A stretch of 33,820 nt of DNA from a virus. The position numbers and the translations under genes are program-made. Of the stretch, positions 23,845-28,749 are shown piece by piece; within the stretch, counting starts at the first letter, position 1; every line of letters begins with the position of its first letter. Where the stretch lies: positions 1 through 33,820 of the IMG/VR virus record IMGVR_UViG_3300042485_003644, one strand, 5' to 3'. The notes below the pieces were generated by a model. It ran no database searches and was not told the origin of the DNA. It saw nothing but the letters and a program-made list of their open reading frames with translations.

Positions 23845-25551
23845 TTATGCCTGACATGCCACACATTCAAGGTCATTCAGATTCAATTTTTTTCTTGCGA
23901 ATGCTTGTGCCGAGTTCATTGAATGTTGGTAATATAGTGTCTTTACACCCAACTGCCATGCGTCAATCAACAATTTGTTGACATCCTTTGTAGGCATGTC
24001 AGGTGAAATCATAAGGTTCAAAGATTGAGCCTGATCAATGTAATCTTGACGAATAGCCGCTTGGTTGATAATTGATGACTGATTGATTTCAGCAAAAGTT
24101 CTAAAAACGTCTTTCTGTTCGTCAGTCAAGAAATCCAAGTGTTGGACTGATCCGTCATATTTTTTAATACTATCCCATACTTCTTTAGTGTCCCTACCCA
24201 TTTCAACAAGTAACTTTTGTAGTACTGGGTTTTTGATTGTAACTTTCAATTTAGCAACATCCTTTACATACGCATTTGACCAAATTGGTTCAATCGATTG
24301 AGATACTTGACCCAAAATGAATGCCGATGAAGTGGTTGGTGCAATTGCGTTCAACGTAACGTTTCTCCTTCCGTATCCCACTAAGTGTTCGGGTTCTCCG
24401 AACAGTTCAGCAAGTTCTTCAGAAGCCTTGTAAGATTTTTCTTTGATAAGTTTGAACACCTCTACGTTCAGACGTGCGGTATCTCTACTATCAAAAGGAA
24501 GATTCTTAGACTGTAAGAATGAATGCCATCCTAAAACTCCGAGACCAAGAGCACGTTGTCTCTTAGCAAAGTTGTAAGCTTTTTCCAAATAGAAAAACGC
24601 TCGTTGACCTTCAATTGTTCCGTTGTGTCTTAGACTATCAATTTTTTCAATGAATTCGGTTACAACCGCATCCAAGAAATAAACCATCGTTTCAACAGCA
24701 TCGGTGTCCTTCCACTCGTCATAGTGAAGTAGGTTCATAGATGAAAGAACACATACAAATGACTCTTCTTCAGAGTTATGGAGTGCAATTTCAGAACAAA
24801 GATTTGAATTATAAATTTTCATGTCCTTATCCTTGTAAACCTCAGGTGCTTTGTTATTCATAGTATCAGTGAACATGATATACGGATATCCAATTTCACC
24901 TCTACGTTGAATTACCTTAGCCCATATAGCTCTTTTCTCATCATTACCAGCAATCATATCTCTCATAAAGTCATCTGTAACAGTGACTGCGTGAGTTAGG
25001 TCTTGAATTGGGAAACCCTCGGTACCAATTTCCAAGAATTCCATGATATCAGGATGCTCTAAAGGTAGATAAGGTGAAAAACGACCTCTACGAGTAGAAC
25101 CCTGTGAAATATTATCAACGACACTTTGAAACAAATTCATAAAATGTACTGAACCAGGTGCGTGTCCATTGTCAGTAATAGTAGCACCACGACCACGGAT
25201 ATTACCAAAATATCCAGAAGTTCCTCCACCCATCTTACTCATTTCTCCTACCTCAGCTTGAGTGTAAAGAATAGATTCAATATTGTCACCAATATTGGAT
25301 CCGAAACAACTTACAGGAAGACCCCTTAGTTTACCAAAATTAGCCCATACGGGTGATGATAATGAATACCATCCTTTACCCATATAACCATAAAATTTAT
25401 CGGCAAATCCTTCGATCCCCAAAAGTTTTTCAGCGTGATCAGCAATGACTCTGATTCGCTCCAAGGGTTGTTCTCCCTCACTCAAATATCCACGACGGAG
25501 GAATGTGATTGATTCATCATTGATCCAGTCGAATGGTTTTCTATTTTCCAT
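23845..25551 (-). CDS. nrdA: Class I ribonucleotide reductase, large subunit, no ATP-cone
   Basis: Reduces ribonucleoside diphosphates to deoxyribonucleotides with NrdB. 568 residues, much shorter than E. coli NrdA (761): it starts MENRKPFDWI directly before the catalytic barrel and lacks the N-terminal ATP-cone. Key residues are in place: redox cysteines Cys82 (LPVSC) and Cys267; the active-site motif N250-L-C252-S-E254 (as Asn437, Cys439 and Glu441 of E. coli); radical-transfer Tyr540-Tyr541 in GVKTLYY; and a C-terminal CVAC (563-566) for thioredoxin/glutaredoxin re-reduction. It starts 16 bases after nrdB, so the two are one unit. The activity regulator seems to have moved to NrdB. Nothing suggests an intron or frameshift. 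Confidence 0.97.
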   Translation of the reverse strand: MENRKPFDWINDESITFLRRGYLSEGEQPLERIRVIADHAEKLLGIEGFADKFYGYMGKGWYSLSSPVWANFGKLRGLPVSCFGSNIGDNIESILYTQAEVGEMSKMGGGTSGYFGNIRGRGATITDNGHAPGSVHFMNLFQSVVDNISQGSTRRGRFSPYLPLEHPDIMEFLEIGTEGFPIQDLTHAVTVTDDFMRDMIAGNDEKRAIWAKVIQRRGEIGYPYIMFTDTMNNKAPEVYKDKDMKIYNSNLCSEIALHNSEEESFVCVLSSMNLLHYDEWKDTDAVETMVYFLDAVVTEFIEKIDSLRHNGTIEGQRAFFYLEKAYNFAKRQRALGLGVLGWHSFLQSKNLPFDSRDTARLNVEVFKLIKEKSYKASEELAELFGEPEHLVGYGRRNVTLNAIAPTTSSAFILGQVSQSIEPIWSNAYVKDVAKLKVTIKNPVLQKLLVEMGRDTKEVWDSIKKYDGSVQHLDFLTDEQKDVFRTFAEINQSSIINQAAIRQDYIDQAQSLNLMISPDMPTKDVNKLLIDAWQLGVKTLYYQHSMNSAQAFARKKLNLNDLECVACQA

Positions 25552-25567: not shown

Positions 25568-26848
25568 TTAAAATAAGTCGTTAAGTGTAATTGATTTTTG
25601 TTTTTTACTATAGTTGATACTTCTTTTATTGAAGAAATCAGTGTGTTTTGTTGTTAGAATTTCATCATCAAACCACTCTGTCGTTTCCAATATTTTTTTA
25701 TCAACTTTGAATACATTTTCAATACCAATAGAATTCAAAGATAGATTGAATCTGTGTTTGATAAACTCTAAAGTTTGTTCTTTGGTGAGAAAATCTAAAT
25801 CACCTTCTTCAAAGATCCAGTTCACAACTTCAACCTCAGATTCGTAAGCTTCTAAAGTTGCGTCAACCAAATCCTCCATAAGGTCTTTTGTCCACCAAGT
25901 TGGATTTTCTTTTTTGATTAGGTTTACCAAATCAAATCCAAACTCAGCATGAATGTTCTCCTCTTTTGATGTTGCTTCAACAGCATTACTAACTCCTTTG
26001 AGGACATTTTTATGTTTGTTGAAAGCCATGATAACCAAAAATTGAGAAAAAAGAGATACGTTTTCTATAAACATAGAAAATAAAATTACCGATTCAAAGT
26101 AATCTTGATTATCAATTGATTTAGAACTTGAAATTGATTTTTCTAAATACTTGATACGTTTACGGATAGCGGGTACCTCAAGTAGATTTTCAAATTCTGT
26201 ATTAAGTCCCAACAATTGAATTAGGTGTGAATAAGCATCTGCGTGTCTCACTTCTGATTCAGCAAAAGTAGCTCCAACACTTCCAATTTCTGGTTTTGGT
26301 AATCTTTTGTAGATATCACCCCAAAAGGTCTTAACCGCTATTTCAATTTGAGAGATTGCCAACATAGCACGTTGAACTGCGGTTTGTTCCTTTTGATTCA
26401 AGTGTACCTTGAAGTCCTGAATATCAGAAGTGAAATTGAACTCTGTATGAACCCAATATGAGTGTCTAATAGCATCTACATAATTCAACAAGTCCGGATA
26501 TTCATATGGTTTCAAGTTTACTCTTTTTGTGAAGATGTTTGGTTGATGTTTAGATCGGTAAATAATATACTCCTTAGCAACATCATTCAAACCATTATCC
26601 ATAAGTTTATTCTCAACCATATCGTGAATTTCATCCACGTGTGGAATATGATGTCTATTACCTCTGAATATACCTTTTTTTGTAAGTCGAGCAATTTTCT
26701 CAGCCATTTCTCCGTCTACTCTACCAGCACTTTCCATAGCCTTCAAAACAGCATTTTTGATCTTATCAACCTCGAATAATACTCGGTCACCACTTCGTTT
26801 GATGACGAAACGTTGGTCACTACCAATCATGTCTATTAGATCGTTCAT
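25568..26848 (-). CDS. nrdB: Class I ribonucleotide reductase, small subunit, with N-terminal ATP-cone
   Basis: 426 residues. Residues about 13-101 form an ATP-cone (FVIKRSGDRVLFEVDKIKNA, ending AKEYIIYRSKH), the domain that senses ATP/dATP and normally sits on NrdA. The ferritin-like radical domain follows with metal ligands Glu169, Glu199, His202 (E-V-R-H), Glu262, Glu297 and His300 (E-N-I-H), and Tyr206 at the place of the E. coli radical Tyr122. The fused NrdB type was characterised in the flavobacterium Leeuwenhoekiella blandensis, where dATP binding to the cone shuts off activity by tetramerisation of NrdB. Residue equivalences here are by eye. Gene order nrdB-nrdA is opposite to T4. 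Confidence 0.96.
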   Translation of the reverse strand: MNDLIDMIGSDQRFVIKRSGDRVLFEVDKIKNAVLKAMESAGRVDGEMAEKIARLTKKGIFRGNRHHIPHVDEIHDMVENKLMDNGLNDVAKEYIIYRSKHQPNIFTKRVNLKPYEYPDLLNYVDAIRHSYWVHTEFNFTSDIQDFKVHLNQKEQTAVQRAMLAISQIEIAVKTFWGDIYKRLPKPEIGSVGATFAESEVRHADAYSHLIQLLGLNTEFENLLEVPAIRKRIKYLEKSISSSKSIDNQDYFESVILFSMFIENVSLFSQFLVIMAFNKHKNVLKGVSNAVEATSKEENIHAEFGFDLVNLIKKENPTWWTKDLMEDLVDATLEAYESEVEVVNWIFEEGDLDFLTKEQTLEFIKHRFNLSLNSIGIENVFKVDKKILETTEWFDDEILTTKHTDFFNKRSINYSKKQKSITLNDLF

Positions 26849-28299: not shown

Positions 28300-28749
28300 T
28301 CAAGCGAGGGTATAATTCAGGTAGTTAGTAACAAAATTTTGTGATGAAAATATGTCAGTCAAGTGTCGAAGAACACTTTTTGCTTGCTGGCGTATGTCTA
28401 CGGTGTATCTTATCTTAGGTGGGAAAAGTTTCGCATCTAAAATTCGGTGACAAATTGTCTGCTCACCAATTTTTACATAAAAATTGAAATATTCGTTGCT
28501 GTCGGTATTGTCAGTATCCAAAATTGTTGGATCTTCCAAAATATCATATTGGTTGTCCATCATGTAGACGACAGTACGCATTTTCTGAGTTTGCTCAAAT
28601 GCATCAACGAGATCTCTCATATATTCATGTAGTTCCATAGATGAACGAGCCGTTGAATTGTAACCTCTTACGTTGAAGTATCTTTGGATTACGATGTTGT
28701 TATTCAAAGTGATGAGAAACTCCATCTTTACGATATCCTGTTCTTTCAT
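28300..28749 (-). CDS. Hypothetical protein between RNase H and helicase genes (149 aa)
   Basis: No family recognised. Soluble, mixed alpha/beta, with aromatic and charged patches (RYFNVRGYNSTARSS, MELHEYMRDLVDAFEQT, YFNFYVKIGEQTICHRIL) and a helical C-terminus. It starts five bases after the rnh stop, and the helicase starts 36 bases after its stop, so it is probably expressed with the replication genes. T4 places helicase-loading and other small replication proteins near these genes, but no sequence match to gp59 or others is visible; the role is open. Confidence 0.7.
   Translation of the reverse strand: MKEQDIVKMEFLITLNNNIVIQRYFNVRGYNSTARSSMELHEYMRDLVDAFEQTQKMRTVVYMMDNQYDILEDPTILDTDNTDSNEYFNFYVKIGEQTICHRILDAKLFPPKIRYTVDIRQQAKSVLRHLTDIFSSQNFVTNYLNYTLA

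Follow-up and report, generated by a model that had tools for sequence, protein, structure and literature searches.

The ATP-cone is present in about half of the class I ribonucleotide reductases (PMC11226230), and the NrdAi subclass of catalytic subunits never carries one (PMC5794259). NrdBi proteins with an N-terminal cone, encoded by viruses as well as by bacteria, were already counted in the 2018 eLife paper (PMC5794259). The closest solved relative of the enzyme considered here is the NrdAi/NrdBi pair of Leeuwenhoekiella blandensis (5OLK, 6SF4/6SF5), in which the cone sits at the N-terminus of NrdB while NrdA has none, and 6dqx is the template named for the model of that NrdA (PMC8350387). 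For dATP inhibition of the L. blandensis enzyme, a Ki of about 20 uM is reported (PMC8350387). In Facklamia ignava, an NrdB with an NrdBi cone forms inactive tetramers with dATP (PMC6187632), but this protein bears an additional N-terminal glutaredoxin domain that is absent from our viral NrdB. Whether phages keep, loosen or discard the feedback control of dNTP synthesis is an old question, and the enzyme described below bears on it.

This enzyme is encoded in the IMG/VR virus record IMGVR_UViG_3300042485_003644, whose 33,820 bases constitute the stretch of DNA that was analysed (hereafter the window). On its minus strand, the window carries baseplate genes of a tailed phage (gp25-like, wedge subunit) and replication genes for a DnaB-like helicase, a 5'-3' exonuclease, a UvsX-like recombinase and an ssDNA-binding protein. 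The nrdB gene (25568..26848, minus strand, 426 aa), recognized through its Pfam, PDB and AlphaFold matches as the radical-generating subunit of a class Id enzyme (NrdBi), is flanked by the helicase gene and by nrdA (23845..25551, minus strand, 568 aa). The two nrd genes follow each other in the beta-alpha order with a gap of 16 bases, an order that is common in the NrdAi clade (70 of 104 sequences; PMC9669993). Between the helicase and exonuclease genes lies an ORF of 149 aa (28300-28749) that matches nothing in PHROG and, in Pfam, only DUF6205 below threshold (17 bits). A/T-rich upstream regions without Shine-Dalgarno motifs are typical of Bacteroidota. Since 19 of the 20 window genes that were checked lack such a motif and have an A/T-rich upstream region, the virus may well infect a member of this phylum. 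Among the best 80 GTDB matches, the closest bacterial NrdBs come mostly from Flavobacteriia.

The sequence-only reading had assigned residues 13-101 of NrdB to an ATP-cone and had proposed to search this N-terminus against the family; the search places PF03477 at residues 14-102 (26543..26809, minus strand; E = 1e-20, 74.5 bits for a cut-off of 25.8), and the domain is modelled as a hairpin and four helices. The R2 core with its dimetal site follows (PF00268, Ribonuc_red_sm, residues 109-383, 25700..26524, minus strand; E = 1.5e-57), and in the PDB the protein matches best the L. blandensis NrdB with its cone (5OLK, residues 11-426, E = 4e-156), so that the likeness to the L. blandensis layout proposed earlier is borne out. 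No NCBIfam NrdB equivalog scored above its cut-off for this protein. As for NrdA, it is a clear NrdAi (TIGR02510, 752.5 bits for a cut-off of 602.25; best PDB matches 6dqx and 6dqw), it has the short, coneless alpha chain of this subclass (568 aa for about 560), and its profile search returned no ATP-cone match over the 568 aa, as had been claimed. A cone on a longer version of NrdA, the case said to undo that claim, is excluded because the stop-to-stop frame counts 571 codons, with only three open upstream of the ATG, and because only 16 bases separate it from nrdB. The view that the cone of class I enzymes mostly sits on NrdA needs to be qualified: about half of class I enzymes carry a cone, and an NrdA without a cone is what one expects here, because the NrdAi subclass never has one.

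The dimetal ligands of the window NrdB are Glu169, Glu199, His202, Glu262, Glu297 and His300, and the inward lysine and the associated aromatic residues are also conserved (Lys173, Trp176 and Tyr206, corresponding to Lys174, Trp177 and Tyr207 of L. blandensis). This set of carboxylate and histidine ligands, with the lysine, the tryptophan and the tyrosine, is that of class Id, which is further defined by a Mn2(IV,III) cofactor without tyrosyl radical. Judged by these residues, the metal site is intact and would be of the Mn2 type, as in L. blandensis. The phage of the window thus encodes a ribonucleotide reductase of class Id (NrdAi/NrdBi) with its activity switch, the ATP-cone, on NrdB. This layout is not new for viruses, as cone-bearing NrdBs are also found in cultured Staphylococcus, Sporosarcina and Salicola phages.

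What sets the phage protein apart from L. blandensis is the passage from the cone to the core. We compared 467 sequences (the window and the fetched loci), of which 383 have a cone and 51 are coneless with a closed 5' end (one more, cut by the contig end, was left out of the coneless set); these counts are of records and not of events, because some loci share one contig. The junction, measured from the Tyr-Arg of helix 4 to the conserved Phe of the core, is exactly 8 residues long in 274 viral and no bacterial sequences, and exactly 12 residues long in 90 bacterial and 20 viral ones, as in L. blandensis, with no length in between. At 90% identity, these reduce to 68 short-type and 49 long-type representatives, in which the distance from the helix-4 Tyr to KPYEYP is 16 (68/68) or 20 (49/49), again without intermediates. 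The counts run over related sequences, mostly of one clade, so they speak of long conservation rather than of many independent events. In the window, the end of helix 4 and the short junction correspond to residues 97-106 (YRSKHQPNIF; 26531..26560, minus strand). Residue 103 is a proline in 63 of the 68 short-type representatives, which fits an early end of helix 4, and in the AlphaFold model of the phage protein (block pLDDT of about 77-91 in the region of helix 4) this helix stops at residue 100, three past Tyr97, whereas that of a Flavobacterial homologue stops seven residues past the equivalent Tyr. In these models, the short-type helix 4 is one turn shorter than that of the L. blandensis type.

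The long type (12-residue junction, Arg at +8 from the stacking Tyr, Gln at the sensor position) groups bacteria and Firmicute phages, and the short type is that of a virus-only clade. Indeed, the Staphylococcus (Silviavirus, Baoshanvirus) and Sporosarcina (Lietuvens) phages share with the window an NrdB cone and a coneless NrdA, but their NrdBs, about 48-53% identical, have the long junction, the +8 Arg and the Gln sensor. The NrdB of Salicola phage SCTP-2 has the short junction, the His sensor and no +8 Arg, but it is very divergent, and the NrdA of this phage contains an intein-like insert; a search for IMG/VR relatives of the Salicola enzyme gave one weak match only. No short-type cone was found in bacteria, either in the best 80 GTDB matches or in the 247 Bacteroidota and 240 Patescibacteria genomes sampled. 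Four Patescibacteria (Paceibacterota) MAGs (L087, L096, L134 and L137) contain NrdBi genes, either their own or on mis-binned contigs, whose cone-bearing products share about 60% identity with the phage NrdB. We found no description of the short junction or of the missing arginines in the literature searched, which covered few subscription journals.

The difference in length concerns the part of the cone where a second nucleotide is held in other systems. In the NrdD of S. thermophilus, the site-2 dATP lies along helix 4 and contacts Tyr101, Arg105 and Arg109, while ATP instead spans to the lysines of helix 1 and of the hairpin (PMC12662201); in P. copri NrdD, the residues named are Tyr83, Arg87 and Arg91 (PMC11226230). 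These cones and the first cone of P. aeruginosa NrdA, which are of the two-nucleotide type, share with the phage cone the Lys-Arg hairpin and the stacking Tyr, but they sit on the catalytic subunit and read YRxxRxxxR on helix 4, a signature present in each of the four two-dATP cones whose structure has been solved. The class III arginines align with Arg98 and Arg102 of L. blandensis; P. aeruginosa NrdA has both and the phage neither, since the window reads YRSKHQPNI. This is general in the short type, where Arg at +8 is found in 0 of 68 representatives for 49 of 49 in the long type, and where position +4 is Asn or His in 63 of 68, so that the basic residue is usually missing there too. The sensor position for the dATP ribose also differs: it is His75 in the window (codon at 26624..26626, minus strand) and in 66 of the 68 short-type representatives, and Gln in 48 of the 49 long-type ones (Gln72 in L. 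blandensis; Gln79 of S. thermophilus NrdD has an E. coli counterpart, PMC12662201). We also considered His70 (Thr67 in L. blandensis) as a sign of lost function and dropped it, as the two-dATP NrdA of P. aeruginosa has a His there as well and the position varies within the group.

The other residues of the two-dATP cone, a type further defined by two bound dATP and by a dATP-induced inactive oligomer, are in place. The window has the hairpin Lys17 and Arg18, the helix-1 Lys29 and the helix-4 Tyr97, and the site-1 residues are nearly invariant in the short type (Lys17, Ile30 and Tyr94 in 68/68, Arg18 in 65/68), the stacking Tyr97 being kept in 62 of 68. The tetramer interface of helices 3 and 4 is also conserved, with Asp76, Glu79, Met83, Lys92, Ile95, Ile96 and Arg98 present in all of 81 sequences (the window and 80 close relatives), although Asp76 is not constant across the short type as a whole. 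It had been asked whether dATP still acts on such a phage cone or whether inhibition was given up; the question was well chosen, and the sequence makes it sharper, with site 1 and the interface kept and the helix-4 arginines gone.

Most likely, as far as residues can tell, the switch works but answers dATP in an altered way, probably more weakly. By analogy with the class III structures, rather than from contacts in 5OLK, we infer that the clamp on the second dATP is lost. The cone would still bind ATP or dATP at site 1 and switch the enzyme, but its hold on the second, inhibitory dATP would be weak or absent, so that each cone may take up a single dATP, like that of E. coli NrdA. The inhibition through NrdB tetramers would then be weaker, or set in at higher dATP than in L. 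blandensis, or operate with one dATP. We lean towards this reading as a whole, that of a class Id enzyme with site 1 kept, the second dATP weak or unbound and the inhibition weaker or shifted. The cone could also act exactly as in L. blandensis, binding two dATP, letting NrdB assemble into tetramers by way of helices 3 and 4 and inhibiting the enzyme fully, the arginines being replaced or unneeded. The interface kept in 81 of 81 close relatives fits a retained oligomerization, and the stacking Tyr97 and the site-1 residues are kept as well; Lys100, the Arg or Lys found at 102 in many relatives and Arg109 might substitute for the lost arginines, and E. coli NrdA, which has His59 at the sensor position, is inhibited by dATP. 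However, the +8 Arg, present in all long-type representatives and in the four solved two-dATP cones, is missing in all short-type ones, and a helix 4 that is modelled one turn shorter also shifts the placement of the cone relative to the core. An unchanged mode of action is therefore a serious contender that we nonetheless rather doubt.

In the short-type phages (independent pairs), the pooled omega of the cone is 0.10 and that of the core 0.04; in bacteria, the values are 0.089 and 0.029. All are rough because synonymous sites are near saturation. By this measure, the cone is under purifying selection, hence its lack of visible decay, and the near-bacterial level of this selection also speaks for an action like that of L. 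blandensis. The aerobic reductase of phage T4 is not known to be inhibited by dATP. One could then imagine that nucleotide sensing has been lost and that the cone remains as a structural or interaction domain only, the overall activity control being gone, all the more so as some viral relatives dropped the cone altogether and many viruses are thought to gain from a loose dNTP control (PMC3267527). However, the 68 representatives, divergent as they are, all have Lys17, Ile30 and Tyr94, and nearly all have Arg18. A cone that binds no nucleotide would hardly show such constancy, and a non-sensing cone is therefore very improbable. The preferred reading, that of a sensing cone with a loosened second site, agrees with this invariance, and the missing helix-4 arginines are where its answer to dATP may differ.

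In the tree of the core, the short-type sequences group in a clade made up of viruses only (support 93/94, and 99/96 with another sampling), from which the Salicola phage NrdB is left out and unplaced. This clade includes three coneless viral sequences (L354, on the same contig as L222, L169 and L381), which are nested among cone-bearing short-type relatives; L354 sits inside a 100/100 clade and is best read, from its position in the tree, as a loss of the cone. When the L222 and L169 loci were scanned, no cone was found elsewhere in them. It is conceivable, if somewhat doubtful, that a large virus-only lineage removed the arginine clamp of the second dATP while keeping site 1, so that the switch stays on where the bacterial version stops. 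As the trait is essentially confined to one clade, it may go back to one old event rather than to repeated selection. The short-type cone may instead stem from an NrdD-like cone that was fused to the viral NrdB in a separate event, its regulation then not deriving from that of L. blandensis. When the cone by itself is searched for in phages, most matches are cones of NrdD or NrdD-like proteins, and of the 40 matches listed only the Salicola phage one is named as an NrdB. The two discrete junction lengths and the coneless lineages among the core sequences would suit such an origin. But the fusion point and the orientation of the cone are identical in both types, and the cone-only tree (85 columns) has no deep resolution, so we find it unlikely. 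A stand-alone ATP-cone of 98 aa also occurs in Proteus phage Privateer (L494, 3540-3836), where it is annotated as ribonucleotide reductase without any catalytic domain; it has the full YRxxRxxxR signature and a His at the sensor position.

If the clamp has indeed been removed, these phages would own a tuned switch that is active at dATP levels that shut down the bacterial version. The two natural versions of the NrdB cone differ in a short, defined junction and in the sensor residue, which makes the question directly testable, and YRxxRxxxR together with the junction length could serve as a sequence marker predicting which ATP-cones hold two dATP.

Longer and possibly cone-bearing NrdAs were also looked for among the relatives, and all candidates were rejected: L351 has an upstream open frame only, and the NrdA frames of L084 (from 6258), L356 (from 4188) and L335 (from 4328) are lengthened by intein-like inserts. 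These inserts, one in the Salicola phage SCTP-2 protein and the others in proteins from two viral contigs, lie just past the Cys of SN(L/M)C, an insertion site that is common to three divergent phages. In the Staphylococcus phages Stau2 and CF5 (L083 and L086), NrdA is split by homing endonuclease genes.
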